The notes below the pieces were generated by a model, which searched no databases, was not told the DNA's origin, and worked only from the letters and a program-made list of their open reading frames with translations. A DNA stretch of 64,000 nucleotides, taken from assembly GCF_900166595.1 (NCBI RefSeq), contig NZ_LT745763.1, positions 1,090,321 to 1,154,320 on the forward strand, given 5' to 3'. This document shows positions 13,632 to 61,183 of the stretch, piece by piece. The DNA is from Virgibacillus dokdonensis. GTDB taxonomy: Bacteria; Bacillota; Bacilli; Bacillales; Amphibacillaceae. The translations under genes and the position numbers were made by a program. Position 1 is the first letter of the stretch, and each line of letters opens with the position of its first letter.

Positions 13632-13710
13632 ATCCCCTTTGTATAAAATAAAGATAACTGCATAGGAAGTTGCTGCTTGGATCACACTATTGTAGTAGGA
13701 GGTGTGATCC

Positions 13711-13851
13711 GTGAAAGAAGAGCAACATGCATATCGTTCTAAGCGTGCTCAAAGTAGTGTCAATCCCCAAGGTCTGTCTGAAGATAAAAAAGATCATCGT
13801 CCAAAAACGCAACTAGAAGATAGGGCGAAAAAGAAAAATACGAAGATCTAA
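13711..13851 (+). CDS. small basic/acidic hypothetical protein, 46 aa
   Basis: This GTG-started frame has a textbook ribosome site (AGGAGGTG) 6 nt upstream, which is the main support. The product is highly charged and hydrophilic with no hydrophobic segment: VKEEQHAYRSKRAQSS at the start and many Lys/Asp/Glu residues, ending AKKKNTKI. It looks like the small disordered or spore-type proteins of Bacillaceae, but I do not recognise a family. It is 79 nt past the exonuclease gene and has no clear terminator before the RNA gene promoter. Confidence 0.6.
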   Translation: MKEEQHAYRSKRAQSSVNPQGLSEDKKDHRPKTQLEDRAKKKNTKI

Positions 13852-13960
13852 TAGTAGATAAATTGCAGAGCTATTGATTCCTAATCTAAGCATCTGTGAA
13901 CAGCTTTTGAAAAATAAGTGTAATTTTTGTGGTTCAATTAATCATCCGTTGCTTTTTTCA

Positions 13961-13988
13961 TTGATTTTTTTGTTAGCGGTGGTATAAT
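13961..13988 (+). promoter_or_regulatory. promoter of the 6S-like RNA
   Basis: TTGATT and TATAAT are 16 nt apart. The predicted start near 13994 coincides with the first base of the long closing stem of the RNA. Confidence 0.65.
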
Positions 13989-13993
13989 AAATT

Positions 13994-14228
13994 TACAAGC
14001 TGCAATGTACGTATTTTATTTAGTTTTAACCTCTAATGAATGAATAGGGAGTTTTATATCGAAGCTTTAATGTCGTGCCGTCTTCGAGCGGAAGACAGGA
14101 CAGTTTCTGCAAACACCCACTTAGCGAAGTGGTGGTTTAAAACTTTTTATTACAAAATACGGCAATTGTGGCCTGTAAGATAAATAATACGACCGACCAG
14201 TTCTTTTATTGGAACTGGTCGTTTTTAA
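13994..14228 (+). ncRNA. structured small RNA, about 235 nt, 6S-like rod shape
   Basis: No protein frame explains this 510-base gap, but an RNA gene does. A promoter ends just upstream and a strong terminator closes it at 14191. The 5' end from 13994 (TACA...GTATTTT) can pair with 14152-14175 (AAAATACGGC...GTA) over about 24 positions with few mismatches. Further in, AGTTTTAACC pairs with GGTTTAAAACT, then GGGAGTTT with AAACACCC, and the tip closes with GTCTTC/GAAGAC. A small hairpin CCACTT/AAGTGG sits on the 3' side. A long closing stem, internal loops and an apical arm are the layout of 6S RNA, which binds sigma-A RNA polymerase. The family identity is tentative; the existence of a structured transcript is better supported. 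Confidence 0.62.
14191..14226 (+). terminator. intrinsic terminator of the small RNA
   Basis: GACCAGTTC and GAACTGGTC pair around a short loop and are followed by GTTTTT. It is among the strongest terminators in the window. Confidence 0.85.
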
Positions 14229-14283
14229 TTGTCTAGGAAATTATAAAATTTAGCAGCTGTGGATAAACTTACTAAGTTATTTA

Positions 14284-14445
14284 GCCACGTCCGGCTCCAG
14301 CGCCCAGCAACTAGGCGACTTCACGAAATCGCCCTACGATAAGTCATCATCGGTTCGTTCCTCACCGTGATTCCTTTATCTCAGTTGATTCGTTCCAGTC
14401 GCTACGTTGCTGAACGGGCGCTTGCGCCTTTGTTCTTGGCTGCGT
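14284..14445. repeat. GC-rich Bacillaceae-type interspersed block
   Basis: This stretch has much higher GC than its surroundings: GTCCGGCTCCAGCGCCCAGC, then AGGCGACTTCACGAAATCGC, then GGGCGCTTGCGCC. I recall CTCCAGCGCC-type blocks as scattered repeats in Bacillus relatives; that is memory, not a search. It covers the last codons of the AraC-type regulator gene, so that protein's final residues are probably encoded by the repeat. Confidence 0.45.
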
Positions 14446-15918
14446 TTGATGTGACCTTCTATATTCTTTTGGTGATGTATTGTTGAATTGCTTAAAAACT
14501 CTGGAAAAGTAATTTTGGTCTTTAAAGCCAACAGAAATGCTAATGTTATAAATGGTTTCATTCGTATGGAGTAAAAGTTTTTTCGCACTATTTATTCTGA
14601 ATTCAGTTACAATTTTTTTGAATGGTTTATTCTCCATCGAAAGTAAATGACTTAAGTAATTGGGGCTGATTTCTAGGTAATTCGCTAGATCTTCTAGGCG
14701 AAGATTTACATTATTAAAATGATGTTCTAAATACAAAAGCGATCTTTCTAAATAATTAAATTCTCGCTTTTGCTTTTGAACTTGAGCATGTTTGATGACA
14801 GTGATGCAAAATAGAATGAATTCTTGCACAATTGTGTACAGAACTGGATGATTTAAAATGATTTGAAACGTATGGTGGTACGCTTCTTCCACAACTTCTA
14901 TTTTAGATAATTTACAGTTATTAATAAACCGTCGCACCTGTGCAAGAACACTTGTAAGTTGAATTCGGACAATCTCTGGTTCGGGATAATTGTTAAACGG
15001 TCTTGTAAACGTTTGATATAAATAATCTTTAATACTCTCAATATCTCCTTTTTCTAAGCTCTCCATCCAAAATCTCTGTTCATCAGAAGTTAAAAAAGGA
15101 TCGAAAGATGAGAAAGTGTAAACTTGATCAACTACAAATACCTGATTAAACCCTTTGTAAAATCTCATGTTAAGCACAGTTTTTGTCACTACATAGGCTT
15201 GATGTAGATCAATAATATCCATCTCGTTTTTATAAATAGCGATATTTATGTTGAAGTCAAATGCTTCTCTCCATAACTGCATTATTTTTGAGACTTCGAA
15301 TTTGATGTTCTCCGTTGTATACGGATACCTTACATACGCTAAACAAACAATTCGGTTATGCAGTGGGTAAAGTTCAATTTTAAATGGTGGGCTATTATTG
15401 TATAACCATGCAAATAAATCCTGTATGTGTGCTTGCTTTTCTGGTTCTATCAGCAAAAAAATGGGCTGAACAGGGTCTGATAAAGAAGTTTTTAAAAATA
15501 AGGAATGGTATATTTCGTGACTTCTTGAAATGTATTCCATAGGCTGACTGCTGTGCTCTATTTTTGTTGCGTTTGTTAGTGCTTTTTTTAATAGTGTAAG
15601 GTTAAGTGGTTTGACAAGTAGTGATTTGCTTTGCAGTTCAATAGCTTGCGAGGCTCTTTCAAAGACAGGCTCTGCTGTTGTTGTAATTAAGCTTTTGGAA
15701 TACCTGCGAATGTTCGTAGCAAAAGCTGCAAAATTAGTAGGAGAAAGCAATTCCAGTTCGAGTATGACGACATGCGGTTTTCCTTTGCTTAAAAGCATAT
15801 TTGCTTGTTTGATATTCCTTGCATGAAGAATATGCTCAAATGGCAGCTGGTTGGAACGAATAAACCATTCCAATCCAGTTCTTTCCGTTTCATCTCGATC
15901 AATAATTAAAATATCCAT
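14362..15918 (-). CDS. AraC-type transcriptional regulator with degenerate receiver domain
   Basis: This is a 518-aa YesN-like regulator. Residues 1-120 fold as a receiver: ILIIDRDE carries the acidic pocket, the switch Thr is in LITTTAE and the Lys in LLVKPLN. The phosphoacceptor position, however, reads VVILELELL, so Glu54 replaces the usual Asp. A long middle region (130-390) precedes an AraC HTH pair, LRLEDLANYLEISPNYLSHLL and ETIYNISISVGFKDQNYFSRVFKQ. The expected end is near SPKEYRRSHQ; the last 25 or so residues come from the GC-rich block. It is transcribed away from the YjiH gene at 16177 and no sensor kinase is adjacent, so it may act without phosphorylation and control the histidine cluster. 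Confidence 0.82.
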   Translation of the reverse strand: MDILIIDRDETERTGLEWFIRSNQLPFEHILHARNIKQANMLLSKGKPHVVILELELLSPTNFAAFATNIRRYSKSLITTTAEPVFERASQAIELQSKSLLVKPLNLTLLKKALTNATKIEHSSQPMEYISRSHEIYHSLFLKTSLSDPVQPIFLLIEPEKQAHIQDLFAWLYNNSPPFKIELYPLHNRIVCLAYVRYPYTTENIKFEVSKIMQLWREAFDFNINIAIYKNEMDIIDLHQAYVVTKTVLNMRFYKGFNQVFVVDQVYTFSSFDPFLTSDEQRFWMESLEKGDIESIKDYLYQTFTRPFNNYPEPEIVRIQLTSVLAQVRRFINNCKLSKIEVVEEAYHHTFQIILNHPVLYTIVQEFILFCITVIKHAQVQKQKREFNYLERSLLYLEHHFNNVNLRLEDLANYLEISPNYLSHLLSMENKPFKKIVTEFRINSAKKLLLHTNETIYNISISVGFKDQNYFSRVFKQFNNTSPKEYRRSHQTQPRTKAQAPVQQRSDWNESTEIKESR

Positions 15919-16143
15919 AATCTAGACCCTTCCCTTAACGTATTGAACATCTTAATTAGGCTGTAGTATAAGATTGGAGACATGCCTAGTTTTTCTGCTT
16001 TCAATAAAAAATCCTAACTATAAAATAGTATTGCTACAAAGGAATTGCTATATCGAATTGAGTAATAAAAATATGCTAAAGTTCGTAAAAAAATCTCTTT
16101 TTTAATGATATCAGAAAAAATATAATAAAGAAAATAATAAAAA

Positions 16144-16156
16144 TGTAAGCGCATTA
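16144..16156. promoter_or_regulatory. candidate cre (CcpA) site
   Basis: TGTAAGCGCATTA matches the left two thirds of the catabolite-responsive element consensus and lies 21 nt upstream of the YjiH gene start. Repression by preferred sugars would be natural for a histidine-use cluster. It rests on one degenerate match. Confidence 0.35.
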
Positions 16157-16176
16157 TTAGTTCTGGGGGTTAAGCA

Positions 16177-17502
16177 ATGGAAAAAACAAAAATTCGAGAG
16201 GAGCAATCGTTATCGGATAAAAGAGCCGCTTGGAAGTTTGTGCTATTCAGTTTGTTTGGGATCATTTCTTTCTTTGTTCCCGTACCAATTGGAGGAGAAT
16301 CATCAATTTTACTCGACCATATTGTAAGTGGAATTAAAACCACCCTCCCCATGTTTGTCATACATAGTTATACTGTTCTCATTCTTTTTCTTGGTGCTGT
16401 CTATCCAATAGCTAATAAGACATGGAGAGATAGTTTTATTAATGTAATCCTTACTTTATTTAAAGTTGTTGGATTTGTTTTTGGAACCATGCTTGTATGG
16501 AACGTTGGGCCAGCTTGGCTCTTTCATCCTGATCTCGGGCCATTTTTATTACAACAATTAATCATACCTGTTGGTATTTTAATACCCATAGGATCTATGT
16601 TTTTAGCATTACTTGTTAACTATGGATTTTTAGAGTTCGTTGGCGTATTTATGCAAGCAATTATGCGCCCTGTTTTTAAAACTCCAGGACGCTCAGCAAT
16701 TGATGCAGTTGCATCGTTTGTCGGTAGTTATTCGATAGGTTTATTAGTAACAAATCGAGTCTTTAATCAGGGTAAATACACAATTCGAGAGGCTTCCATT
16801 ATTGCTACTGGCTTTTCTACAGTTTCTGTTACGTTCATGATAGTTATTGCAAATACGTTAAATCTAATGGATTTTTGGAACTTGTACTTTTGGATGTCTT
16901 TAATCATAACGTTTGTTGTAACAGCTATTACAGTAAGAATTTGGCCCTTAAGCAGGATAAAGAATACGTACATTAGCGGAAAAGGAAATCCTGAAACGAT
17001 CATCAAAAAGAATCGATTATATCATGGATGGAAAGAAGGCATTTATGCGGCAAATCGAGCTCCTAGTATATTTTCTAGTGTAGTTGCGCATTTAAAAGAA
17101 GGATTAATGATGACAATGAATACACTCCCTTCCATAATGTCTGTAGGTCTACTTGGTTTAGTACTTGCCTATTATACACCACTATTTGATTGGTTGGCTT
17201 ATATTTTTGTTCCAATTACATGGCTCTTACAAGCACCTGAAGCTCTATTAACTGCGAAAGCTGCTGCTATTTCCATTTCGGAGATATTTTTACCATCTTT
17301 ACTTGTGGTGGAAGCTGAGCTTGCAACTAGATTTATAGTTGCTGTGCTTTCCGTATCATCCATTTTATTTTTTTCAGCAGTAATCCCTGTCATTATTTCA
17401 ACGGATATACCAATACCGATATCTAAGATGATTATTATATGGTTTCAGAGAGTTGTGCTAACGTTATTTATCATCATACCAATAGCAAAGTTAATTTTTT
17501 GA
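16177..17502 (+). CDS. YjiH-family membrane protein (nucleoside-recognition/Gate type)
   Basis: This is a 441-aa polytopic membrane protein with roughly ten hydrophobic stretches. FGIISFFVPVPIGGESSILLDHIV near the start and the later GRSAIDAVASFVGSYSIGLLVTNRVF with TGFSTVSVTFMIVIANTL are typical of YjiH-like proteins that carry two Gate repeats. Members often sit beside histidine or imidazole catabolic genes, so a transport role for a histidine-related compound is plausible but not established. GGGGG lies upstream of the ATG. It is first in the run that leads to hutU, and divergent from the AraC-type regulator. Confidence 0.75.
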   Translation: MEKTKIREEQSLSDKRAAWKFVLFSLFGIISFFVPVPIGGESSILLDHIVSGIKTTLPMFVIHSYTVLILFLGAVYPIANKTWRDSFINVILTLFKVVGFVFGTMLVWNVGPAWLFHPDLGPFLLQQLIIPVGILIPIGSMFLALLVNYGFLEFVGVFMQAIMRPVFKTPGRSAIDAVASFVGSYSIGLLVTNRVFNQGKYTIREASIIATGFSTVSVTFMIVIANTLNLMDFWNLYFWMSLIITFVVTAITVRIWPLSRIKNTYISGKGNPETIIKKNRLYHGWKEGIYAANRAPSIFSSVVAHLKEGLMMTMNTLPSIMSVGLLGLVLAYYTPLFDWLAYIFVPITWLLQAPEALLTAKAAAISISEIFLPSLLVVEAELATRFIVAVLSVSSILFFSAVIPVIISTDIPIPISKMIIIWFQRVVLTLFIIIPIAKLIF

Positions 17503-17581
17503 AAAAGAGTAGTTTTAAGAAAAAGCTTTTTTACACTATAGGAGTTTTTCTAAATTTAAATAGAAGGGTGACGGTTTTACT

Positions 17582-18730
17582 GTGAAACCATTAGAGGGGA
17601 TAAAAGTGTTAGATTTTACAAGGGTTTTAGCTGGTCCATTTGCTACAAAAATACTAGCAGATTTTGGTGCTGAAGTTATAAAAATAGAAAGAACAGGGCA
17701 TGGAGACGATACACGTTCTTTTGGACCATTTCAAAATGGGTTAAGTGGCTATTTTGTTTATTTAAATACTGGAAAAAAGAGCGTTGAACTAAACTTAAAA
17801 GACCCTGACTCTATTTGTTTATTAAAGGAAATGGTGAAAGATGTAGATGTCGTAATTGAAAATTTTAGACCTGGAATTATGCGCAAATTTAATTTAGATT
17901 ACGCATCTCTAAAAGCTATGAAACCAAATATTATTTATGCTTCTATTTCCGGTTTTGGACAAGAAGGCGTCTGGAGTAATAAGCCTGCCTATGATCTTAT
18001 TGCACAAGCCGCGGGAGGCATAATGAGTATTAATGGTTATCCTGATTCACCACCAACACGTGTTGGTGCTTCCTTAGGAGATACTAGTGCTGGTTTAAAT
18101 GCAGCGATTGGGATCACTACTGCTTTATTTCATAGAGAGCGAACGGGGGAAGGGCAGCATATTGATGTGGCGATGGTAGACTCGATATATGCATTATTGG
18201 AGAGTAATGTGATGCGGTATACAGTAGATGAAAATGTTCCACAACGAATTGGAAATCGGCACCCGATAAGTGCACCGTTCGATATATATCAATCAAAAGA
18301 AGGATATTTAGCTATTGCTATTGCTAATGAATCATTGTTTGAAAGATTTACTACATTAATTCATCGGGAAGATATGCTAGAGGATGAACGTTTTCGTACA
18401 GATAACAACAGACAGAAATACCAAGAGTTATTAAAAGCCGAAATAGAAAATTGGTTACGTCCATACACTGCAACAGAGGCAGCAGCTTTACTTGAACAAG
18501 GGGGGGTACCTTGTTCTGTTATACACGACATAAAAGATATTTCTGAAAGTGCCTATATAAAAGAGAGAAATATGCTTGTAGATGTGAATCAATTAGAACA
18601 TGGTTTGTTTAAAATACCTGGAAATCCTATTAAGTTATCAAGCTTAAAACAAACGAATATTCAGCCAGCCCCAGAGCTTGGAGAGCATACAGAAGCTATA
18701 CTTGAAAAATATAAGGAGATGATGAAATGA
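17582..18730 (+). CDS. class III CoA-transferase (CaiB/BaiF family)
   Basis: This enzyme moves CoA between a thioester and a free carboxylic acid. At 382 aa it has the usual family length. MKPLEGIKVLDFTRVLAGPFA is the standard N-terminus, ADFGAEVIKIE follows, and the catalytic aspartate should be Asp167 in LGDTSAG (equivalent to Asp169 of formyl-CoA transferase). It starts with GTG after AGAAGGGTGA and its stop overlaps the acyl-CoA dehydrogenase start by 4 nt, so the pair is translationally coupled. No enzyme of this type belongs to the standard hut pathway; the position suggests activation of an imidazole acid such as imidazolepropionate. The substrate is inferred from context only. Confidence 0.9.
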   Translation: MKPLEGIKVLDFTRVLAGPFATKILADFGAEVIKIERTGHGDDTRSFGPFQNGLSGYFVYLNTGKKSVELNLKDPDSICLLKEMVKDVDVVIENFRPGIMRKFNLDYASLKAMKPNIIYASISGFGQEGVWSNKPAYDLIAQAAGGIMSINGYPDSPPTRVGASLGDTSAGLNAAIGITTALFHRERTGEGQHIDVAMVDSIYALLESNVMRYTVDENVPQRIGNRHPISAPFDIYQSKEGYLAIAIANESLFERFTTLIHREDMLEDERFRTDNNRQKYQELLKAEIENWLRPYTATEAAALLEQGGVPCSVIHDIKDISESAYIKERNMLVDVNQLEHGLFKIPGNPIKLSSLKQTNIQPAPELGEHTEAILEKYKEMMK

Positions 18731-19863
18731 ATTTTGGGTATACGGAGGAACAAATCAGTATTCGAAGCATGGTTCGTGATTATGCGAAAAATGTATTGAC
18801 GCCCCGAGCAAAAGAATGGGATGAGAAAAATGCATTCCCTTTGGAGCACGTAAAGTCTATGGGGGAACTTGGATTGTTAGGGATAGCATACCCAGAAGAA
18901 TTTGGCGGTGTAGGTGCTGACTCTATAACGGAAGCAATAGCAGTTGAAGAAATAACATACGGCTGTGCTGCAACTGGTTCTATATTAACAGCCCATTACT
19001 TAGGAATTGATGGTTTATTCTTAGCAGGGAGTGTTGAACAAAAAAGAGAGTACTTAATCCCTGGTTGTAAAGGTGAAAAGCTCTTTGCATTTGGGTTAAC
19101 AGAACCGATTGGGGGAACAGATGTAGGTTCCATGAAAACGACAGCCGTAAAAGATGGCGATGATTATGTTTTAAACGGTATGAAACATTTTATTACTAAT
19201 GGTAAATATGCTGATATTATTATTGTTTATGCGAAAACGGATACATCAAAAGGAAATAAAGGCATTAGTGCTTTTATAGTAGAAAACGGAACAGAAGGCC
19301 TCTCGTTTGGAGTAGGGGATGACAAAATGGGGATTAGGGGAGCTACCACAGATGAAGTGATTTTTGAAAACTGTCGTATACCAAAAGAAAACCTTCTAGG
19401 AGAAGAGGGAGATGGTTTTAAGCTTGCTATGCAAGTTGTGGATAGGGGAAGGATTGGCATTGCGGCGATGGCTGTAGGTTTATCACAAGCTGCTTTAGAT
19501 GCAGCAGTTCAATATGCTAAAGAAAGGCCAGCATTTGGCAACCCCATTGCGGAATATCAAGGTTTGCAGTGGATGATGGCTGAAATGAAAGCTGATTTAG
19601 AAGTATCTCGTATGTACACGTATTACGCAGCTTCATTAAAGGATGGTGGGGGAAGAATTTCTCAGGAAGCAGCTATTGCAAAATTAATAACGTCTGAAGC
19701 GAGTCAAAGAATTGTGCATAAAGCAGTTCAAATTCATGGCGGTTATGGATACATGAAGGAGTTTCCAGTAGAAAGATATTATCGCGATCAACGAATATTA
19801 GAGATATTTGAAGGCACGTCTCAAATACAAAAAATTGTTATCGCTAGTCACTTATTAAAATAA
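18727..19863 (+). CDS. acyl-CoA dehydrogenase
   Basis: This flavoenzyme introduces a 2,3-double bond in an acyl-CoA and passes electrons to ETF. It is 378 aa, the size of short-chain members. GLTEPIGGTDVGSMKTTA is the FAD/substrate loop, and the catalytic base is Glu362 in EIFEGTSQIQ. HKAVQIHGGYGYMKEFPVERYYRD is the second signature. Coupled to the CoA-transferase by a 4-nt overlap and followed 32 nt later by hutU, it is probably specific for the product of that transferase. Oxidation of imidazolepropionyl-CoA to urocanyl-CoA would link it directly to HutU. Other short acyl substrates cannot be excluded. Confidence 0.92.
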   Translation: MNFGYTEEQISIRSMVRDYAKNVLTPRAKEWDEKNAFPLEHVKSMGELGLLGIAYPEEFGGVGADSITEAIAVEEITYGCAATGSILTAHYLGIDGLFLAGSVEQKREYLIPGCKGEKLFAFGLTEPIGGTDVGSMKTTAVKDGDDYVLNGMKHFITNGKYADIIIVYAKTDTSKGNKGISAFIVENGTEGLSFGVGDDKMGIRGATTDEVIFENCRIPKENLLGEEGDGFKLAMQVVDRGRIGIAAMAVGLSQAALDAAVQYAKERPAFGNPIAEYQGLQWMMAEMKADLEVSRMYTYYAASLKDGGGRISQEAAIAKLITSEASQRIVHKAVQIHGGYGYMKEFPVERYYRDQRILEIFEGTSQIQKIVIASHLLK

Positions 19864-19895
19864 TTACTTCATAAAGAATATAAAGGGGAGATTTA

Positions 19896-21566
19896 ATGAT
19901 GAATACAAATCAAGTCATTAAGGCACCTACGGGGTCAGAATTAACATGTAAAGGTTGGCAGCAAGAAGCAGCAATGAGGATGTTAATGAATAATTTAGAC
20001 CCACAAGTAGCAGAAAATCCAGATGAATTAGTTGTCTATGGTGGGATAGGCAAAGCAGCAAGGAATTGGGAATCTTTCCATAAAATAATTGCTACGTTGA
20101 AAAAGCTGGAAAACGATGAGACACTAATTGTACAATCAGGGAAGCCTGTAGCTGTATTTAAAACACATGACCATGCACCTCGTGTATTAATCGCCAACTC
20201 AAATATCGTGCCCAGTTGGGCAAATTGGAATCACTTTTATAAATTGGAAAGTGAAGGCCTTATGATGTATGGGCAAATGACAGCTGGTAGCTGGATATAT
20301 ATTGGAGCACAAGGCATTTTACAAGGAACTTATTTGAGCTTTGTAGAAGCTGGCAAAAAAGCGTTTGGATCAACAGATCTATCCGGAAGACTTATTTTAA
20401 CAGGTGGCATGGGAGGTATGAGTGGTGCGCAACCATTAGCAGGGAAAATGGCTGGAGCGGTTACGCTTGTAGTCGAAGTAGAAAGAAAACGAATTGAACG
20501 CAAAATAAATGAGGGCTATTGTGATTACTTGGTTACCGACATAGACGAGGCTTTACAGCTAGTGAATAAATATCGCCAAAAAAGGGAAGCCGTTTCCATT
20601 GGTCTTGTTGGTAATTGTGCTGATGTATTTCCAGCTATTTATGAAAAGGGAATCGTCCCAGACATTGTAACAGATCAAACGAGCGCGCATGACCCAATAA
20701 ATGGATATATACCAAATGGAATGTGTTTCGAACAAGCTTTGGTATTAAGAAAGAAGGATCCTAAAGCTTATGAAGAAAAGGCAAAAGCTACTATGGGTGT
20801 TCATGTTCAGGCAATGTTGGATTTTCAAGCATCTGGTTCTGAAGTGTTTGATTATGGCAATAATATTCGAGCTTATGCGAAAGAAACGGGAGTGGAAAAT
20901 GCTTTTGATTTTCCTGGCTTTGTTCCTGCTTATATCCGTCCGCTATTTTGTGAAGGGAAAGGGCCATTTCGTTGGGCAGCCCTTTCAGGTGATCCAGAGG
21001 ATATTTACCGTACGGACCGTCTAGTTAAAGAAATGTTTGCTGAAGATGAGTCTCTTGTAAAGTGGATAAATATGGCGCAAAAAATGATACAATGGCAAGG
21101 GCTTCCTTCTCGCATCTGCTGGCTCGGATATGGAGATCGTCATCGTTTTGCATTAGAAGTTAACAAGTTGGTTGCTACAGGGGAAATGAAAGCTCCTATT
21201 GTATTCGGTCGTGATCATCTTGATTCAGGGTCGGTAGCTTCTCCAAATCGAGAGACAGAAGGGATGAAAGATGGAAGTGATGCCGTATCTGATTGGCCAA
21301 TATTGAATGCACTCCTTAATACTGCTGGTGGTGCTAGTTGGGTTAGCGTACATCATGGTGGTGGAGTGGGTATGGGATATTCACAGCATGCGGGTCAAGT
21401 TATCGTAGCAGATGGCACGAAAGAAGCAGCTGAAAAAATAAAGCGGGTTTTAATCACCGATCCTGGCATGGGAGTAGCAAGGCATGTGGACGCTGGATAT
21501 GATATTGCTATTGAAACAGCAAAAGAGAAAGGAATTTACATTCCGATGATGGATTCCGAAGTATAG
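19896..21566 (+). CDS. hutU: urocanate hydratase
   Basis: This NAD-containing enzyme hydrates urocanate to 4-imidazolone-5-propanoate, step two of histidine degradation. The length of 556 aa is normal. The NAD-binding glycine-rich loop [18 protein letters not shown], the following [11 protein letters not shown], and the C-terminal [18 protein letters not shown] are diagnostic. AAAGGGGAG precedes tandem ATG codons at 19896 and 19899. It is separated from hutG by 206 nt that contain an intergenic repeat, so hutG may need read-through or a promoter of its own. Confidence 0.97.
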
Positions 21567-21589
21567 TCGAAGAACATGAACTGTTGAGG

Positions 21590-21682
21590 CTTTCCTTTTT
21601 ATACAAATTATAAGGTTTATCGTATAAAAAAACGACAGCGTTTTTCCGCCATAAGACTTGGCGACAACCCAAATTTTTCTAA
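21590..21682 (+). repeat. dispersed intergenic repeat, copy 5
   Basis: This is a near consensus copy: AAGGTTTATCGTATAAAAAA, ACGACAGCGTTTTTCCGCCA, TAAGACTTGGCGACAACCCA, then a T-rich end. It lies between hutU and hutG inside the operon. Confidence 0.75.
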
Positions 21683-21771
21683 TCATGATAAGTGTTCTTC
21701 CATAGAAAAATAAAGGCTTTTCGTATAGAACAATAGCTTTTGCCATAAAGATTGTGAAAGGTGGTAGGAAC

Positions 21772-22734
21772 ATGTACTCGATGACAGAAAAACAATGGTG
21801 GTCTGGGAGGGTAGATCATGCAACAGATCCAGCTTACTTTCGGTTTCACCAAGCTATTCAATTGAAAGACATTGCATCACGTAAACGAGATAATGATTTA
21901 AAGGGATCCATAGCTTTGATTGGATTTTCTTCTGATGAGGGTGTTCGCAGGAACAAAGGTCGAGTCGGTGCGGCAAAAGCGCCATATGAAATTAGATCTG
22001 TACTGGCAAATTTAGCTTACCATTTAGAAAAATTGTCTATATTTGACGTAGGGAATGTAAGTTGTATACATCAACAATTAGAAGAATCACAAGAAGAATT
22101 AGGGAAATACATGCATTATTTACTACAAGCACAATCCACACCAATCATACTTGGAGGAGGACATGAAACATTATATGGACATTATCTTGGTGCACGTCAA
22201 TATGTCAATCAAACAACAAAATTGGGGATAATCAATATTGATGCGCATTTTGATTTACGAAATGATTTTCTGCCAACTTCAGGTACGATGTTTAAACAGA
22301 TATTGGAGCAAGATAAGTTTGCGGGGTATTTATGTTTAGGTATTCAAAAATGGGGAAACACGCAAGCTCTTTTTCAAGAAGCAGCTCAGTATCAAAGTAA
22401 TTATATTTTAGCTGAGGACGTAGCCAATGATAGCCAAACTATAAAATTGATAGACGATTTTACGAAACAGCATGATTATATTATCTTTACTTTATGTATG
22501 GACGCGGTGGAAGCAACTGCAGCTCCAGGTGTGAGCGCTCCATCTCCGCTTGGGTTAGAGCCTAAAATAGTTAGAGACTTGATACGGTATATAGTAGCCA
22601 AACCGAATTTGCTTAGTATGGATATTTCCGAGGTAAACCCTGTTGTTGATGAAAATAATAAAACAGTAAAATTAGCTGCTTATTTCATTGCAGATGCTAT
22701 GCAATCCATGCAAAATAGAAAAAATATGCTATGA
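21772..22734 (+). CDS. hutG: formimidoylglutamase
   Basis: This Mn-dependent ureohydrolase splits N-formimidoyl-L-glutamate to glutamate and formamide, the last step of the Bacillus-type pathway. It has 320 aa and belongs to the arginase family: GGGHETLYGHY, NIDAHFDLR and CMDAVEATAAPGVSAP carry the metal ligands. The ATG at 21772 follows AAAGGTGG at normal distance; the open frame begins six codons earlier at a GTG. It is followed 13 nt later by hutI. Confidence 0.93.
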   Translation: MYSMTEKQWWSGRVDHATDPAYFRFHQAIQLKDIASRKRDNDLKGSIALIGFSSDEGVRRNKGRVGAAKAPYEIRSVLANLAYHLEKLSIFDVGNVSCIHQQLEESQEELGKYMHYLLQAQSTPIILGGGHETLYGHYLGARQYVNQTTKLGIINIDAHFDLRNDFLPTSGTMFKQILEQDKFAGYLCLGIQKWGNTQALFQEAAQYQSNYILAEDVANDSQTIKLIDDFTKQHDYIIFTLCMDAVEATAAPGVSAPSPLGLEPKIVRDLIRYIVAKPNLLSMDISEVNPVVDENNKTVKLAAYFIADAMQSMQNRKNML

Positions 22735-22747
22735 AGGGGCGTTAAAC

Positions 22748-24028
22748 ATGTCAAACTCTATATTTGTGAAAAATGCAGCGCAGGTAATTACGATGCAAGG
22801 TCATACAGATAAACCAGCTAAAAAAGAAGCGATGCAGCAATTAAGCATTGTTGAGAATGGGAGTGTGTTAGCTCAAGACGGAGAAATTATAGCAGTAGGT
22901 ACGGAAGCAGAAATAAAAAACAATTATCCAGACGTAGTTAGAAATGCGAAAGAAATTCATGCAACAGGAAAAATTGTCACACCTGGACTTATTGATCCAC
23001 ATACACATCTTGTGCATGCTGGAACGAGAGAAAATGAGTATGCGATGCGTTTAAAAGGAAAGACGTATATGGATATTATGCATGCAGGTGGCGGAATTCA
23101 TGCAACGACAGAAGCGACGCAAAAAGCAGGTTTTGAACAACTTTATCAAACGTCAAAAAAAAGGTTAGATACGTTTCTATTACATGGTGTGACAACAGTT
23201 GAAGCGAAAAGTGGCTATGGTCTTACAACAGAGCACGAATTAAAGCAATTGGAAGTAGCGCAGCAGTTAAATAAGGACCATGTCATTGATATTGTATCTA
23301 CATTTATGGGGGCGCATGCAATTCCAATTGCGGAAAAAGACCAGCCAGAAAAATTTGTCGATAAAGTGATTGATGAAATGCTCCCAGAAGTAGCCAAGCG
23401 AAATTTAGCAGTTTTTAACGATGTATTTTGTGAGCGAGGTGTATTCACGCCTGAACAATCCAAACGAATTTTAGAAGCAGGAAAGCAATATGGTCTCATC
23501 CCCAAAATTCATGCTGATGAAATAGAGCCATATGGTGGAGCGGAGTTAGCAGCGGAAGTAGGTGCTATTTCTGCTGATCATTTGTTAAAAGCTTCTGAAA
23601 TAGGAATGACTAAAATGGCAGAAAACGATGTCGTTGGCGTCCTTCTTCCTGGCACTGCTTTTTTCCTAATGGCGGCATTTGCAGACGCTCGGAAGATGAT
23701 TGATAATGGAGTTGCTGTTGCATTATCAACGGATGCTAATCCAGGGTCTTCTCCAACATTATCATTGCAATTCATTATGAATTTAGGTTGTTTAAAGATG
23801 GGGATGACACCAGAAGAAGTGCTTATGGCAACAACAATAAATGCTGCTCACGCTATTAACTGTGCAAAAGAGGTTGGTAGTTTAGAAGTTGGTAAAAAAG
23901 CAGATATAACGATTTTTGATGTACCTAACTACTTAACATTATCCTATCAGTATGGGATGAATCATGTAGATACAGTGATTAAAAATGGGGAAATTGTTGT
24001 GGAAGAGAGACATTTAGCGTATTACTAA
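22748..24028 (+). CDS. hutI: imidazolonepropionase
   Basis: This metal-dependent amidohydrolase opens imidazolonepropionate to N-formimidoylglutamate. The chosen start gives 426 aa, preceded by AAGGGGCG and 13 nt after hutG; the long frame upstream lies inside hutG. The metal site DPHTHLVHAG, the substrate-binding ENEYAMRLKGKTYMDIMHAGGG, and the later IHADEIEPYGG and STDANPGSSP are all present. The order hutU-hutG-hutI differs from the hutP-H-U-I-G order of B. subtilis. Confidence 0.95.
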   Translation: MSNSIFVKNAAQVITMQGHTDKPAKKEAMQQLSIVENGSVLAQDGEIIAVGTEAEIKNNYPDVVRNAKEIHATGKIVTPGLIDPHTHLVHAGTRENEYAMRLKGKTYMDIMHAGGGIHATTEATQKAGFEQLYQTSKKRLDTFLLHGVTTVEAKSGYGLTTEHELKQLEVAQQLNKDHVIDIVSTFMGAHAIPIAEKDQPEKFVDKVIDEMLPEVAKRNLAVFNDVFCERGVFTPEQSKRILEAGKQYGLIPKIHADEIEPYGGAELAAEVGAISADHLLKASEIGMTKMAENDVVGVLLPGTAFFLMAAFADARKMIDNGVAVALSTDANPGSSPTLSLQFIMNLGCLKMGMTPEEVLMATTINAAHAINCAKEVGSLEVGKKADITIFDVPNYLTLSYQYGMNHVDTVIKNGEIVVEERHLAYY

Positions 24029-24102
24029 GTAAATGGAAATGATGAGAATGTACGATTTTGTTAATAGTATAAAAAATTATATTACGTTTCGTTTTCACAA
24101 TC

Positions 24103-24132
24103 TTGACGAAATTATTGGAGAACGCATATACT
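24103..24132 (+). promoter_or_regulatory. sigma-A promoter for hutP-hutH
   Basis: TTGACG and TATACT are separated by 18 nt, about 49 nt before the hutP start. It suggests hutP-hutH form a transcription unit separate from hutUGI. Confidence 0.5.
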
Positions 24133-24180
24133 GAAGATAGCTATTAGTTATTAGAAAAGATGTCAGCTTAGGGGTATGTA

Positions 24181-24624
24181 TTGATCATGAATAACCATTT
24201 GCGTATTGGCAAGATTGCGACTTTACATGTCATGCTGGATGAGGAAGAACGTACTTACTTCTCATCTGCTTTTGAAACCGTGCAGATTTGTGAGGGGAAA
24301 GTAGGGTCAATGGAATTACAGAAGGTTATTTCCTCTGTAGAAACCGCTGTTAAACGGAGTGGAATGATTGAAGAAAAGCTGTACCGTGAAACGCATGCAT
24401 TATATCATGCTATATTGGAAGCGCTTGAAGGTGTGACGCGAGGGCAGTGGGCGCTTGGAGAGATGATGCGAACGGTTGGTTTGCGCTTTGCTGTCGTACG
24501 CGGAAAGCCGTACGAGCTTGAACAAGAAGGCGAGTGGATAGCGGTAGCCTTTTATGGGACAATTGGAGCGCCCATAAGAGGGCTGGAACACGAAGCAATT
24601 GGCTTAGGAATTAATCATATATAA
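24181..24624 (+). CDS. hutP: hut operon anti-terminator HutP
   Basis: HutP is the RNA-binding protein that, with L-histidine and Mg2+, binds UAG-rich RNA and opens the terminator ahead of the histidase gene. The product is 147 aa, close to B. subtilis HutP. Conserved segments include RIGKIATLHVMLDEEER, the histidine/metal region HALYHAILEALEGVTRGQW and IAVAFYGTIGAPIRGLEHEAIGLGINHI at the end. A TTG at 24181 is the best start: AGGGG lies 6 nt upstream, whereas the ATG two codons later is 12 nt away. Its probable target is immediately downstream, at 24635-24697. Confidence 0.93.
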   Translation: MIMNNHLRIGKIATLHVMLDEEERTYFSSAFETVQICEGKVGSMELQKVISSVETAVKRSGMIEEKLYRETHALYHAILEALEGVTRGQWALGEMMRTVGLRFAVVRGKPYELEQEGEWIAVAFYGTIGAPIRGLEHEAIGLGINHI

Positions 24625-24634
24625 TCATTACCTA

Positions 24635-24697
24635 TAGTCGTTAGCTAAGTAGGAGGTGATGATGGCTAGCTTTATCTGCCATTATTACCTCTTTTTT
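24635..24697 (+). promoter_or_regulatory. HutP-controlled terminator between hutP and hutH
   Basis: Three UAG triplets (24635, 24642, 24650) with 4- and 5-nt spacing precede the left arm. GAGGTGATGATGGC (24653-24666) pairs with GCCATTATTACCTC (24678-24691) using GU wobbles, followed by TTTTTT. In B. subtilis HutP binds UAG triplets spaced by 4 nt in this same position, so histidine would allow read-through into hutH. The family knowledge is strong; the binding site here is inferred. Confidence 0.72.
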
Positions 24698-24699
24698 GT

Positions 24700-24790
24700 T
24701 GTACTATAAGAAATCTTAAGAGCTAGAGGGTTATAAACTTCGGCTTTCTTCATAAAAAAGGGAAAAAAGCCAAGTTTCTCTTATGCTATC
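24700..24790 (+). repeat. dispersed intergenic repeat, copy 6
   Basis: TACTATAAGAAA, GGGTTATAAACTTCGGC and AAAGCCAAGTTTCTCTTATG match parts of the family. It directly follows the HutP terminator, between it and the hutH ribosome site. Confidence 0.55.
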
Positions 24791-24868
24791 AACAAGTTTT
24801 GGGATGAGGGAAAACCCCACTACTTGAAGATACACTTTAACAAAGACATTTCAAAAGGGGGAGTACGT

Positions 24869-26350
24869 ATGGTGGAATTAACAGGTCATTCATTAACGGT
24901 CGATGAAGTGAGGCGTGTTTGCGTTAATATGGAAGATATATCTATATGCAAAGAAAGCATGGAAAAAGTTAAAGCAAGTCGTAATAGCGTCGATCAAATA
25001 GTAGCAAATCAGGAAACAGTTTACGGTATAAATACAGGATTTGGGAAACTTAGTGATGTTATCATTAATAATGATAACGTAAGCGATTTACAATTGAACC
25101 TAATTCGTTCGCACGCTTGTGGAGTCGGCGAGCCTTTTTCTGAAACAATTTCTCGGGCTATGCTATTACTACGACTAAATGCTCTAGTGAAAGGTTTTTC
25201 TGGTGTTAGGCCAACATTGGTACACTTACTAGCTGATCTGATTAACAAACAAGTTCATCCAGTTATTCCGCAACAAGGATCATTAGGGGCTTCTGGTGAT
25301 TTAGCTCCACTTGCGCATGTAGCTTTAGTGTTGATAGGAGAAGGCAACGTTTTTGGTAAGAACGGCGAAATAAGATCTACAGAAACTGTTTTCTCAGAAA
25401 AAGAAATAGTCCCAATCACGTTACAGTCTAAGGAAGGGCTTGCGTTAATTAATGGAACGCAAGCAATGGTGGCAGTAGGTATCATGAATTATATTGAAAC
25501 GGAAAAACTAGCGTTTGATAGTGAATGGATTGCAGCAATGACGATGGAAGGACTTGAAGGTATTATCGATGCATTTCATCCAGCCGTTCATGAAGTGCGG
25601 GGTTACCCTCAACAGATAGCTGTAGCAGAGCGAATGAGGGAGTGGTTTAAAGGAAGCAAGTTAATCACACGTCAAGGTGAAAAACGAGTACAGGATGCGT
25701 ATTCATTACGGTGCATTCCACAAGTTCATGGAGCTTCATGGCAGGCATTGGATTATGTGAAAGAGAAGTTAGAGATAGAAATAAATGCAGCCACAGATAA
25801 TCCGTTAATTTTAAATGATGGAAAGTTGATCGTTTCAGGCGGGAATTTTCACGGGCAGCCAATTGCTTTAGCAATGGATTTTTTGAAAATTGCAGTTGCT
25901 GAGTTAGCAAATATTTCTGAGCGTAGGGTGGAAAGGTTAGTTAACCCGCAGTTAAATGATTTGCCAGCTTTCCTTAGCCCGTCACCAGGACTCGAATCAG
26001 GAGCTATGATTATGCAATATGTTGCTGCCTCCTTAGTATCAGAAAACAAGACGCTGGCGCATCCAGCTAGTGTGGACTCTATTCCGTCTTCTGCTAATCA
26101 GGAAGATCATGTAAGTATGGGGACCATCGGAGCTAGACATGCAAAAATAATTATTGATAATACGCGAAAAGTTATTACTATAGAATGTATTTGTGCTCTT
26201 GAAGCTGTAGAATATAGGGGAGTTGATAAGATGGCTCCAAAGATAAGAGGAAAATGGGAGGAACATAGGGGAATTGTTCCAAGGATTACTAAAGATCGTG
26301 TATTTTCTGAAGATATAGAAAGGTTATCCGATACACTACGAAGCTATTAA
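24869..26350 (+). CDS. hutH: histidine ammonia-lyase (histidase)
   Basis: This enzyme removes ammonia from L-histidine to give urocanate. The ATG at 24869 has AAAGGGGGAG upstream and yields [10 protein letters not shown], which lines up with the family N-terminus; the frame 15 codons longer has no site. The product is 493 aa. The MIO cofactor forms from Ala141-Ser142-Gly143 in [25 protein letters not shown] and [17 protein letters not shown] are typical of histidases. The C-terminus ends at TLRSY, about 15 residues shorter than B. subtilis HutH. Expression should depend on HutP read-through of the terminator upstream. Confidence 0.96.
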
Positions 26351-26397
26351 ATAATTATAAATGCTACATTTGTTGCTACGTAGATATGTTTTTAATA

Positions 26398-26490
26398 CTG
26401 TAGGAAGCATAAAATTTTTAGCGTTTATAGTTTAAGAAAAACTATAGCATTCGCCATATGAATTGCCAATAAGCCAAGTTTTTTTAAGGT
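26398..26490 (+). repeat. dispersed intergenic repeat, copy 7
   Basis: GTTTATAGTTTAAGAAAAAC and GCCAATAAGCCAAGTTTTTT are family blocks; the middle CTATAGCATTCGCCATATGA corresponds to the usual GCGTTTTTCGCCATAAGA. Confidence 0.65.
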
Positions 26491-26544
26491 AGTACTGTAG
26501 AATAACTGGAGTCCGCATGTATTTCGCTGAAGTTTCTCTATGAA

Positions 26545-26622
26545 AACTAAAAAAATTTAAGGTTAATCGTATAAGAAATACTGGCTACCTCCATAAGCTT
26601 TAGCGATATACCAATTTTAAAA
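26545..26622 (+). repeat. dispersed intergenic repeat, copy 8
   Basis: TTTAAGGTTAATCGTATAAG and CCATAAGCTTTAGCGATATA match. It lies 55 bases after copy 7 in the same orientation, so two copies sit side by side. Confidence 0.6.
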
Positions 26623-26668
26623 ATGGAATGTTTCCTCAAGGCAAGAGGTTCCTATTTCATAAAAAGCC

Positions 26669-26697
26669 TTGACAATGAATGGAAAAATTATTAGAAT
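26669..26697 (+). promoter_or_regulatory. sigma-A promoter for the nitronate monooxygenase gene
   Basis: TTGACA and TAGAAT are 17 nt apart, about 110 nt before the ATG. Confidence 0.6.
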
Positions 26698-26808
26698 TAT
26701 CAGTAATTATACGTTGGGTTTAGTGATCGTAGTAATTTTGCTAGATGTGCAACTGAAAGCGATTACTCTAGGTGGAGGATCTAAATATAGACAAAGGGGT
26801 AGTTAAAA

Positions 26809-27792
26809 ATGAAGACTAACGAAGCAATTCAAGAAATGAAAGCGTCTATGCGTTTGCCAATTGTTATGGCACCAATGTTTTTAGTTTCTAGTCCTAAAAT
26901 GGTTACAGAAGCTTGTGCAGCAGGAATTGTAGGGACATTTCCTGCATTAAATGCAAGAACAAAAGAAATATTGGAGCATTGGATGGAACAAATTACTAAC
27001 GAGTTAGAGGAGATGAAAAAAGATAATCCAAATAAAAAAATTGCTCCGTGGGGAATAAATTTTATAACGCATCGTTCTAATAAGCGTTATACGGAGGATT
27101 TACAATTAATAGAAAAATATAAACCACCAATTGTCATTACTTCTTTAGGTGATCCTAGTCCAGTTGTGAAAATTGCTCATGAATATGGTGGAATTGTTTT
27201 TTCAGATGTCATTGATATCAAATTTGCTAAAAAAGCAATAGCAAAAGGAGCAGATGGACTTGTTTTAGTAGCAAGTGGTGCAGGTGGTCACGCAGGGCAG
27301 CTAAATCCGATATCATTTCTGCATGAGGTTCGTTCTTTCTTTTTAGGTCCGGTTATCTTAGCTGGCGGAATGTCAAAAGGAGAGGATATTCTAGCTTCTG
27401 AAGTACTTGGAGCAGATTTTGTTTATATGGGGACGCGATTTATCCCGTCAAAAGAAAGTGAAGCTTCTCAAGATTATAAGCAAATGATTGTTGATTCTGC
27501 TATTGAAGATATTATTTATACGGATGCTTTTAGTGGGGTACATGCTAATTACCTTATCCCGAGTATTACAAAAGCAGGGTTAGACCCAACTAACTTAAAA
27601 CCGAAGCAGGAAATCGATTTTAATAAGCTGCAAACGGAGGCAAAAGCATGGAAAGATATTTGGGGTGCTGGACAAGGAATTGGTCCTATTAAAGAGATTC
27701 AAACTATTTCAGAAATTGTGGATGAGCTAGAAACCTCCTATGAAAAAGGAATACGAAATATAAAACAACGAAATGCTGTATACATGAAATAA
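26809..27792 (+). CDS. nitronate monooxygenase family flavoprotein
   Basis: This is a 327-aa FMN enzyme of the 2-nitropropane dioxygenase/nitronate monooxygenase family, which oxidises alkyl nitronates such as propionate 3-nitronate. PIVMAPMFLVSSPKMVTEAC is the family start, with ASGAGGHAGQLNPISF as the FMN-phosphate loop and GGMSKGEDILASEVLGADFVYMGTRF as the C-terminal barrel strand pair. RBS AAAGGGG lies upstream. Related proteins also serve in other reactions such as enoyl reduction, so the substrate is open. The next gene, an acyl-CoA ligase, is 149 nt downstream on the same strand. Confidence 0.82.
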   Translation: MKTNEAIQEMKASMRLPIVMAPMFLVSSPKMVTEACAAGIVGTFPALNARTKEILEHWMEQITNELEEMKKDNPNKKIAPWGINFITHRSNKRYTEDLQLIEKYKPPIVITSLGDPSPVVKIAHEYGGIVFSDVIDIKFAKKAIAKGADGLVLVASGAGGHAGQLNPISFLHEVRSFFLGPVILAGGMSKGEDILASEVLGADFVYMGTRFIPSKESEASQDYKQMIVDSAIEDIIYTDAFSGVHANYLIPSITKAGLDPTNLKPKQEIDFNKLQTEAKAWKDIWGAGQGIGPIKEIQTISEIVDELETSYEKGIRNIKQRNAVYMK

Positions 27793-27941
27793 TCTTTTCT
27801 ACTAGATTTTACAATTTGTTAAGAAACTCGTGCACGTACCGACTAATGCTTTATCCATAGAGATGTCGTATCCGTAGTTTCTGTTCGTTTACGACATCTA
27901 TTGTGAAGAAGATAAAAATTACATACAAAGGGGCAGGTTGT

Positions 27942-29531
27942 ATGCATTATCCACTAACACCAATTGATTGGAAACGAAGAGCAATTAAATATTATCCCAA
28001 CAAAGTGGCAGTTATTGATGAAGAAAAAACATTTACGTATGCGCAATTTGGAGAAAGAACAGATCGACTATCACAAGCGTTAATCAATGCGGGAATCCAT
28101 GAAGGAGATCACATAGCTGTTATGTTACCGAATACACATTATATGCTGGAATGTTTTTATGGGATATGTCAAACGGGGGCGGTTATGGTTCCGTTAAATT
28201 ATCGTATTTCACCTGAAGACATGGCGTATATTATTAATCATAGCGATGCTAAATTACTCATTGTTGATGCAGCATTCACTTCCTCTATTAAAGAGATTCA
28301 ATCTGAATTGAATCTGAATGATATTGTTGTTGTCGAGGTACCTGGTTATGATAATCAAATAGAGGGAATAGATTATGAACATTTCATTCAATACGTTGAG
28401 CCCACTTCATTTTCACCACTTCACTTAGATGAAAATCAACTTTTAACCATTAATTATACAAGTGGTACAACATCTAAGCCTAAAGGAGTGATGCAAACAC
28501 ATCGTAGCAATTATATGAATGCCGCAGATTTTATGTTTCATTTAGGGGTAAAGCACGAAGACGTTTATCTCCACACACTTCCCATGTTTCATGTGAATGG
28601 CTGGGGCGGTGTCTGGGCGATTACGGCTGTCGGTGGTGTACATGTATGTTTACGAAAAGTTGATCCAAAGGTCATTTTAGATTTATTTGAAAAACACCAA
28701 ATAACGCTGTTATGTGGCGCTCCAATTGTGATTAATATGCTTGTAAACGAGCCAAAAGTAAACGAGGTTTCAATTAATGTAAAATCACGAATGGCTACAG
28801 CAGGTTCTCCACCAGCAGCAGCGTTAATCCAACAAGCGCAAGATTTGCTTGGCTTGGATATCTTACATGTGTATGGTTTGACAGAAACATCCCCATTCAT
28901 TTTATACAATGAGTGGAAATCTTCATTCAACCAATTATCTCTTGAAGAACAATCCGCTTTAAAAGCGAGGCAAGGTGTAGAAATGGTTTTTAATGGAGAA
29001 ACAAAAGTAGTCGATCAAGATGGCGAAGAAGTTGCATGGAACGGGGAAGAACTTGGAGAAATTGTAACTAGAGGCAATGTTGTTATGGAAGGCTATTATA
29101 AAGATGAGGAGCGAACCAAAGAGGTGTTCAAGGACGGTTGGTTTCATACAGGTGATTTAGCTGTAACGCATCCTGATGGCTATATAGAAATACGTGACCG
29201 AGCTAAAGATGTTATTATCTCTGGTGGTGAGAATATTTCTTCTACGGAAATTGAAGGTGTTTTATATCGTCATCCTGCCGTATTAGAAACAGCTGTTATC
29301 GCTGTTCCACATGATAAATGGGGAGAGGTACCACTAGCAATTATTATTTTGAAGAAAAACGCTACCGTTACTGAAGAAGATATTATTACGTATTGTCGTG
29401 ACAATATGGCACATTTTAAAGCACCAAAAAAAGTAGCATTTGTTAAAGAATTGCCTAAAACAGCTACAGGAAAATTACAGAAATTTCGTTTGCGTCAAAT
29501 GTATTGGGATAGTGAACGGCTGGTAAATTAA
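27942..29531 (+). CDS. acyl-CoA synthetase (AMP-forming)
   Basis: This ligase adenylates a fatty acid and joins it to CoA; it is 529 aa. The AMP-binding P-loop TINYTSGTTSKPKGVM, the VYGLTETSP motif, GWFHTGDLAV and the catalytic Lys in ELPKTATGKLQKFR are all present. MHYPLTPIDWKRRAIKYYPNK resembles medium/long-chain acyl-CoA synthetases of Bacillaceae. The ATG at 27942 follows AAAGGGGC; the frame begins 13 codons earlier without a site. Chain length is not predictable. It has no coenzyme-linked neighbour beyond the flavoprotein upstream. Confidence 0.88.
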   Translation: MHYPLTPIDWKRRAIKYYPNKVAVIDEEKTFTYAQFGERTDRLSQALINAGIHEGDHIAVMLPNTHYMLECFYGICQTGAVMVPLNYRISPEDMAYIINHSDAKLLIVDAAFTSSIKEIQSELNLNDIVVVEVPGYDNQIEGIDYEHFIQYVEPTSFSPLHLDENQLLTINYTSGTTSKPKGVMQTHRSNYMNAADFMFHLGVKHEDVYLHTLPMFHVNGWGGVWAITAVGGVHVCLRKVDPKVILDLFEKHQITLLCGAPIVINMLVNEPKVNEVSINVKSRMATAGSPPAAALIQQAQDLLGLDILHVYGLTETSPFILYNEWKSSFNQLSLEEQSALKARQGVEMVFNGETKVVDQDGEEVAWNGEELGEIVTRGNVVMEGYYKDEERTKEVFKDGWFHTGDLAVTHPDGYIEIRDRAKDVIISGGENISSTEIEGVLYRHPAVLETAVIAVPHDKWGEVPLAIIILKKNATVTEEDIITYCRDNMAHFKAPKKVAFVKELPKTATGKLQKFRLRQMYWDSERLVN

Positions 29532-44010: not shown

Positions 44011-44031
44011 CTTCCTATGACCTCCTATGTA

Positions 44032-60994: not shown

Positions 60995-61016
60995 GATTAC
61001 ATTCAAATAAATACGA

Positions 61017-61087: not shown

Positions 61088-61183
61088 TAACTGATATAGA
61101 TTGTATTTTACACTGTAAGAAAAGTGTTCGCATTTCGCCATCACGTGAAGTCTTCTTATGCAAAATACGATCGTTTCTCTTTT

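Follow-up and report, generated by a model that had tools for sequence, protein, structure and literature searches.

What do a class III CoA-transferase and an acyl-CoA dehydrogenase do in a hut cluster for histidine degradation? The question is raised by a 64,000-nucleotide stretch of the Virgibacillus dokdonensis genome (contig NZ_LT745763.1, positions 1,090,321 to 1,154,320; hereafter the window), in which the genes for the two enzymes (CoAT and ACDH) stand directly before hutU, the urocanate hydratase gene. The reading frames of CoAT and ACDH overlap by 4 nt, and 32 nt separate ACDH from hutU. An original prediction, made from the DNA letters, had described the order Gate (YjiH-type)-CoAT-ACDH-hutU-hutG-hutI-hutP-hutH and proposed that the pair converts imidazolepropionate to urocanate. 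The open reading frame list and scans with Pfam and NCBIfam models confirmed the coordinates, the layout and both family calls, and added an AraC-type regulator gene that was absent from that account and belongs to the same transferred block. We consider it probable that AraC-Gate-CoAT-ACDH-hutU, with or without hutG, forms a transferable cassette feeding imidazolepropionate (dihydrourocanate) into the hut pathway.

Linkage of the CoAT-ACDH pair to hutU

A single-sequence search with the window's CoAT (E ≤ 1e-100, 490 bits or more) revealed a match in seven of 159 genomes of the family, the window's own included, while hutU occurred in 66. We extended the search with a CoAT profile (A1) to genomes of the order, class and phylum, in sets that overlap and were drawn from larger groups. 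Besides the window's genome, the profile recovered G314 among 397 order genomes, G775, G601 and G687 among 398 class genomes, and G903 among 398 phylum genomes, the class of G903 being represented by three genomes only. The profile scores were bimodal, with hut-type CoATs at 594 bits or above and all others at 504 bits or below. In total, complete hut-type CoATs were present in 12 genomes spanning Virgibacillus to Natranaerobius, and a thirteenth case, G114, was truncated by a contig end. ACDH adjoined CoAT in all 12 complete cases (66-97% identity to the window protein in the 11 others), and hutU was never farther than about 2.4 kb from the two genes. Lower-scoring CoATs behaved differently: tblastn with the window hut proteins detected hut genes at none of 52 such loci (L020-L071, several of them on short contigs) and at none of a further 14 (L148-L155, L166-L171). 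A pattern scan of genome contigs returned two hut-linked loci (L018, L019) among 54.

Searches of a protein database, each scoring 8000 candidates, gave a consistent picture. Among the matches listed (for CoAT, the best 120 of 430), 119 CoAT and 114 ACDH clusters had 41 longest contigs of equal size in common, compared to a mean of 0.4 and a maximum of 3 in a shifted-size control. Both lists name Oceanobacillus, Aneurinibacillus, Neobacillus, Cytobacillus, Pontibacillus, Savagea, Natranaerobius, Clostridiaceae bacterium 35-E11 and Dehalobacterium; Sporosarcina is in the CoAT list only, and Sporomusa, Kyrpidia and Lysinibacillus are in the ACDH list only. Among plasmids, 616 records carried class III CoATs, every one below 60% identity. 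These sequence comparisons strongly support a link of CoAT-ACDH to hutU that exceeds chance, and among the loci fetched there was no conserved tie of the pair to another pathway. The 12 of 12 linkage and the family scores below the cut-offs led us to reject the view that a routine fatty-acid or glutarate module merely happens to sit beside hut. The window's genome also contains a paralogous CoAT/ACDH pair (L084, G000:C15:796558-798902; 34% and 43% identity), which has no hut genes around it and is neighboured by aldehyde-dehydrogenase-like open reading frames, which were identified by eye from the start of their protein sequences.

The gene order around the pair varied. In the window's genome, G139, G141 and G142, the order is AraC<>Gate-CoAT-ACDH-hutU-hutG-hutI-hutP-hutH (<> marking divergent genes), and in G314 it is AraC<>Gate-CoAT-ACDH-hutU-hutI-hutG2. 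G111 and G775 share hutG-hutH-hutI-hutU2-AraC-Gate-CoAT-ACDH-hutU. G087 has hutI-hutG2-hutP-hutH-CoAT-ACDH-hutU-hutU2-AraC, followed by an aminotransferase and a hydroxyacid dehydrogenase, and G080 has hutU-hutI-hutG2-CoAT-ACDH-SSS-hutP-hutH, followed by the same two genes. In G601 and G687, the order is SSS-CoAT-ACDH-hutU-hutU2-AraC, with an IS110-type transposase gene separating SSS from CoAT in G687, and in G903 (L165) it is Gate-CoAT-ACDH-hutU-EtfB-EtfA. Given these varied layouts, the linkage has been kept through rearrangement. A hutH-family match was found in 14 of 14 genomes tested, the match in G114 being a fragment; in G314, G601, G687 and G903, hutH lies on a different contig from the module.

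Transfer and replacement of the resident hut segment

We built a tree of 43 HutU proteins, with 20 of the 59 family genomes that have hutU but no CoAT match serving as the ordinary sample. The hutU genes of module genomes formed one clade (13 rows, support 100/100), which includes G112 and leaves out the ordinary-type hutU of G080; 11 of the 12 complete module genomes thus carry a hutU of this clade. The 12 hut-linked CoATs likewise formed a clade (support 100/99), and the nearest CoAT outside it (L171, 96/81) has crotonase, hydroxybutyryl-CoA dehydrogenase and thiolase genes as neighbours, a cluster of the beta-oxidation type.

Genomes of the same genus revealed how the block is placed. G140, G143, G144 and G145 lack the CoAT and have an ordinary hutU that is 64-65% identical to that of the window, and their hutI, hutP and hutH are 72-86% identical. 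Colinearity of the window DNA with G140 and G145 extends to about 14231 and resumes at 22731, continuing to 29536. Within the interruption, the G140 and G145 stretches contain nothing that matches AraC, Gate, CoAT or ACDH, and hutU and hutG of G140 and G145 (66-68%) stand in the order opposite to the window's. The colinear flanks, the unmatched genes and the inverted order therefore indicate that AraC-Gate-CoAT-ACDH-hutU-hutG replaced a resident hutG-hutU segment. Judged from sequence, the CoAT-ACDH-hutU block is real, conserved and transferable. A short stretch at the left boundary of the replaced segment (14222-14450) has matches at two or more separate places in the G140 and G145 loci, which would fit a dispersed repeat. 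A search of 13600-27000 for repeats of at least 30 bases found none, and a repeat taken from L073 was absent from the window at up to three mismatches.

Enzyme features and a proposed route from imidazolepropionate to urocanate

CoAT is a full-length class III enzyme (PF02515, 413.2 bits over residues 4-370, cut-off 23.3, E 1e-123). Its putative catalytic Asp167, which we take to correspond to Asp169 of formyl-CoA transferase, is invariant in alignment A1 (7 rows) and, at the same column, in A3 (9 rows, with G903); YfdE also has Asp at this column. ACDH has the N-terminal, middle and C-terminal domains, and its Glu362, within an EGT motif and presumably the catalytic base as in known relatives, is present in 12 of 12. 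Moreover, all 12 module ACDHs have the same residue at 22 positions, a residue found in at most two of 16 other ACDHs. Several of these positions are within residues 82-95 and 237-252, stretches that may line the acyl pocket in this fold, and hut-specific positions also occur around 355-359.

Because imidazolepropionate is the saturated acid of urocanate, pathway reasoning marks urocanate as the hut compound obtainable by ACDH-type 2,3-dehydrogenation. In six module genomes (the window's own, G139, G141, G142, G314 and G080), hutU is single-copy and must therefore also hydrate urocanate derived from histidine; the link of the pair to hut thus most simply runs through urocanate. In the route that we propose, imidazolepropionate would be taken up by the Gate protein, or by the SSS symporter in other loci. 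CoAT would then transfer CoA from urocanoyl-CoA to imidazolepropionate and release free urocanate, and ACDH would oxidize imidazolepropionyl-CoA back to urocanoyl-CoA, its electrons passing via an electron transfer flavoprotein (ETF) and a FadF-type protein to menaquinone. Hydration of urocanate by HutU would pull the cycle forward, and HutI and HutG would complete the route to glutamate. With the product thioester as donor of a class III CoAT, the oxidation would be CoA-neutral, such that the loop, once primed by some cellular acyl-CoA, would run at zero net cost in CoA or ATP. We infer the substrate, the direction, the CoA donor and the host electron path of this scheme. As to the original prediction, its functional link of the pair to hutU gained strong support from the conserved association, from the co-inheritance of hutU and from ETF and FadF in one locus, and its substrate, direction and CoA recycling continue to rest on chemical reasoning.

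The electron path is suggested by a few loci. In G111 (L076), EtfB, EtfA and a FadF-like iron-sulphur protein directly follow hutU, and no fatty-acid genes were recognized by eye over the 6 kb after them; L165 is the second of 12 module loci with EtfBA beside the pair. FadF, a menaquinone-linked protein, is found in 10 of 12 module genomes at E ≤ 1e-60, including the window's own, where it lies elsewhere in the genome. ETF and FadF beside hutU in L076, ETF in L165 and the distribution of FadF therefore point to an electron route to menaquinone. Among the window's cluster genes, Pfam scans detected no Etf genes, and the hallmark of a Car-type system, a dedicated EtfAB with ferredoxin-fused EtfA, was not found. 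The AMP-dependent CoA ligase at 27903-29531 was rejected as a dedicated priming enzyme, since both it and the nitronate-monooxygenase-like gene beside it occur equally in G140 and G145, which lack the CoAT. A route of the FldBC type was rejected as well: its 2-hydroxyacyl-CoA dehydratase family (PF06050) occurs in one of 14 genomes, G903, and not in the window's own, in a search whose control recovered the family in two of 14 well-known genomes.

Evidence against the proposed route and alternative readings

Several observations weigh against feeding of imidazolepropionate into hut. The pair scores below the cut-off of every NCBIfam model that it matches, so family models yield no substrate: ACDH reaches its best family score, 483.8 bits, with the AcrC acryloyl-CoA reductase model (NF042972, cut-off 640), and the remaining scores are 190.4 against 540 and 129.2 against 413 for CaiA and CaiB, 305.5 against 470 for glutaryl-CoA dehydrogenase and 307.2 against 750 for succinate-glutarate CoA-transferase. 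The coupling is also not absolute: at E ≤ 1e-100 no CoAT was matched in G112 and G157, whose hutU is of the module type, and G080 combines the module with an ordinary hutU. At 25 positions that are otherwise conserved, module hutU itself departs from the ordinary type. The Gate protein, which accompanies the pair in 8 of the 12 complete loci, is not module-specific, being found in hut clusters without the pair as well (L081, L083, L174). In G903, EtfA carries Fer4 domains, unlike EtfA of L076, and such a ferredoxin-fused protein suits reduction as well as oxidation. In G687, FadF, a thiolase and an AMP-dependent CoA ligase directly follow the cassette (L197:493-5596), and this FadF could be part of an adjacent fatty-acid operon. 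Finally, six of 13 module loci (G087, G111, G114, G775, G601, G687) encode a second urocanate hydratase homologue, HutU2, that lies outside the scheme.

HutU2 raises a further reading, in which the pair's substrate would be a compound related to imidazolepropionate, such as an N-methylated 3-(imidazolyl)propionate, and HutU2, in the genomes that have it, would hydrate the correspondingly modified urocanate. We regard this as unlikely, albeit the best placed of the alternatives. HutU2 (L075:13759-15393, L076:5862-7463, L145:4646-6244, L146:1880-3478, L147:13589-15181, L078:8881-10482, L080:1051-2649) is 48-50% identical to window HutU in four family genomes, occurs also in G112, which has no CoAT match, and persists as stop-bearing fragments in G903. 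It is altered at the conserved positions 131, 134, 442, 443, 445-447, 482, 486 and 495. Module hutU retains the canonical residues at all of these, and in the six genomes without HutU2 the single hutU has to serve urocanate derived from histidine, both of which speak against a modified substrate. A comparison of HutU2 and a third HutU type with solved urocanases led to no substrate assignment, and we found no paper on thiourocanate and related hydratases in open-licence PubMed Central.

The loop could also run in reverse, with urocanate activated by CoA transfer, urocanoyl-CoA reduced by ACDH and imidazolepropionate released as an electron sink, the outcome that UrdA reaches by a different mechanism. 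The chemistry is reversible, the caffeate, cinnamate and crotonobetaine modules are reductive, and the ferredoxin-fused EtfA of G903, the relatedness of ACDH to CarC (6fah) and its best score with an acryloyl-CoA reductase all fit reduction. We nevertheless give reversal about one chance in ten, because all 12 loci have hutU, a competitor for urocanate, beside the pair, a presumably menaquinone-linked FadF-type partner follows hutU in L076, and carriers accompany the pair. Moreover, with hutH on another contig in four genomes, the module is not bound to locally made urocanate, although all genomes have hutH. The position of hutU, FadF and the carriers favour oxidation. Least probable is an unrelated short-chain or dicarboxylic acid as substrate, with the hut location a regulatory convenience: both this genome and others do have further CoAT/ACDH pairs in unrelated or beta-oxidation clusters, and the FadF-thiolase-ligase group of G687 would suit it, but in all 12 loci the hutU linkage outlasts rearrangement and distant transfer, and with L171 proteins as queries homologues of crotonase-type enoyl-CoA hydratase and hydroxyacyl-CoA dehydrogenase were found in none of 11 fetched module loci, thiolase in one (G687). 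The window's own crotonase homologues are at 43480-44805, some 17 kb from hutH.

Relation to known systems and significance

By analogy, the chemistry proposed for imidazolepropionate is a variant of a known CoA-loop type and would be the oxidative mirror of caffeate and cinnamate reduction. One close parallel is CarABCDE of Acetobacterium woodii, in which a CoA-transferase loop, an ACDH-family enzyme and ETF act on a 3-aryl-acrylate/propionate pair, and whose CarC is a sequence relative of the window ACDH. Unlike the cassette, which is proposed to be oxidative and has EtfBA in 2 of 12 loci, the caffeate module is reductive, has a ferredoxin-fused ETF and contains no hut genes. CaiA and CaiB of carnitine metabolism pair a class III CoAT with an ACDH-family enzyme and shuttle CoA between a saturated and an unsaturated acid; they differ in substrate and direction, and our pair falls far below their model cut-offs (190 vs 540; 129 vs 413). 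The phenyllactate-phenylpropionate pathway of Clostridium sporogenes (FldA/AcdA) likewise combines a class III CoAT and an ACDH on an arylpropionyl/arylacryloyl-CoA pair, whereas 13 of the 14 genomes here lack PF06050 and histidase already yields urocanate. UrdA, a CoA-free flavoenzyme, had no counterpart among the cluster genes in Pfam and NCBIfam scans.

Coote and Hassall reportedly described in 1973 that Pseudomonas testosteroni degrades histidine, imidazolyllactate and imidazolylpropionate. This is the very combination that our clusters suggest, and the cassette may account for the degradation of imidazolylpropionate reported there. L075 and L077 encode a HisC-like aminotransferase (above the hisC cut-off) and a D-2-hydroxyacid dehydrogenase, which fits use of imidazolelactate via imidazolepyruvate to histidine. 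The balance tips slightly toward the horizontally moving cassette being the missing genetic route of imidazolepropionate removal, extended to general imidazole-acid scavenging by clusters with HutU2, aminotransferase and hydroxyacid dehydrogenase. With similarly narrow preference, we would extend this reading to Bacilli and some anaerobic Bacillota, the cassette bringing along its regulator and carrier and, at a single locus, an ETF and a quinone oxidoreductase of its own.

Imidazolepropionate is a microbial product of histidine which passages of PMC13320830 tie to type 2 diabetes, atherosclerosis and Parkinson's disease. In the same passages, UrdA interconverts urocanate and imidazolepropionate and acts as producer of the latter, and these passages are silent on its degradation (PMC13320830). 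Among the matches listed in open-licence PubMed Central, we found neither genes for imidazolepropionate removal nor a hut-linked ACDH route. If the proposal holds, it would provide a genetic route by which Bacilli and some anaerobic Bacillota remove this disease-linked metabolite. The cassette would offer a marker for imidazolepropionate consumers in metagenomes, and its small, defined size makes removal directly testable in a laboratory strain.

Regulation and further features of the locus

The features of the locus are compiled in Table 1. Its five hut genes all exceed their NCBIfam cut-offs, which assigns HutH, HutU, HutI and HutG to the Hut pathway. For hutI, the start is most likely the ATG at 22748 rather than the listed TTG at 22688.

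Table 1. Features of the cassette and the adjoining hut genes (window positions).
Feature	Position	Strand	Remarks
AraC-type regulator	14362..15918	-	divergent from cassette; weak receiver-like N-terminus; PF12833 66.4 bits
Divergent promoter region	15919..16176	+	conserved block ~16109-16140 with TATAAT; 5-locus alignment
Gate/YjiH-like membrane protein, putative substrate carrier	16177..17502	+	PF07670 45.9 bits
Class III CoA-transferase (CoAT)	17582..18730	+	GTG start; PF02515 413 bits
Acyl-CoA dehydrogenase (ACDH)	18727..19863	+	N-terminal, middle and C-terminal ACAD domains (Pfam)
hutU, urocanate hydratase, cassette clade	19896..21566	+	TIGR01228 932 bits, cut-off 375
hutG, formimidoylglutamase, right-hand gene of replaced block	21754..22734	+	TIGR01227 280 bits, cut-off 229
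hutI, imidazolonepropionase, resident locus	22748..24028	+	TIGR01224 464 bits; colinear with G140/G145
hutP, antiterminator	24181..24624	+	NF002838 221 bits, cut-off 155
hutH, histidine ammonia-lyase	24824..26350	+	TIGR01225 695 bits, cut-off 539

The AraC-type regulator occupies the same divergent position in L018, L072, L073, L074 and L144 and is likely a substrate-responsive activator of the cassette; its Response_reg match (25.5 bits) falls below the cut-off of 30.2. In the divergent loci, the conserved block with TATAAT precedes Gate and is followed by TGTAAGCG (16144-16151), a cre-like stretch. We infer that the block may be an AraC-dependent promoter and TGTAAGCG a CcpA site. Across 15900-29600, promoter-like sites were not enriched (38, compared to 45.9 in shuffles), and terminator-like sites numbered 14 (8.7 in shuffles).

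Three further observations concern genes near cassette or hut loci. In G157 (L082:8995-10655), the module-type hutU is split in two frames beside an AraC gene, and the DNA retrieved around it contains neither CoAT nor ACDH, possibly reflecting a decayed cassette or a sequencing error. In G903, a flavocytochrome c/fumarate-reductase-like FAD lipoprotein is encoded about 2 kb from the module (L165:676-2127). In the window, a glutamate dehydrogenase family gene (31134-32516) lies about 5 kb 3' of hutH, glutamate being the end product of hut. Farther away, the window contains a purine riboswitch aptamer at 61000-61101 (Rfam RF00167, 86.4 bits).

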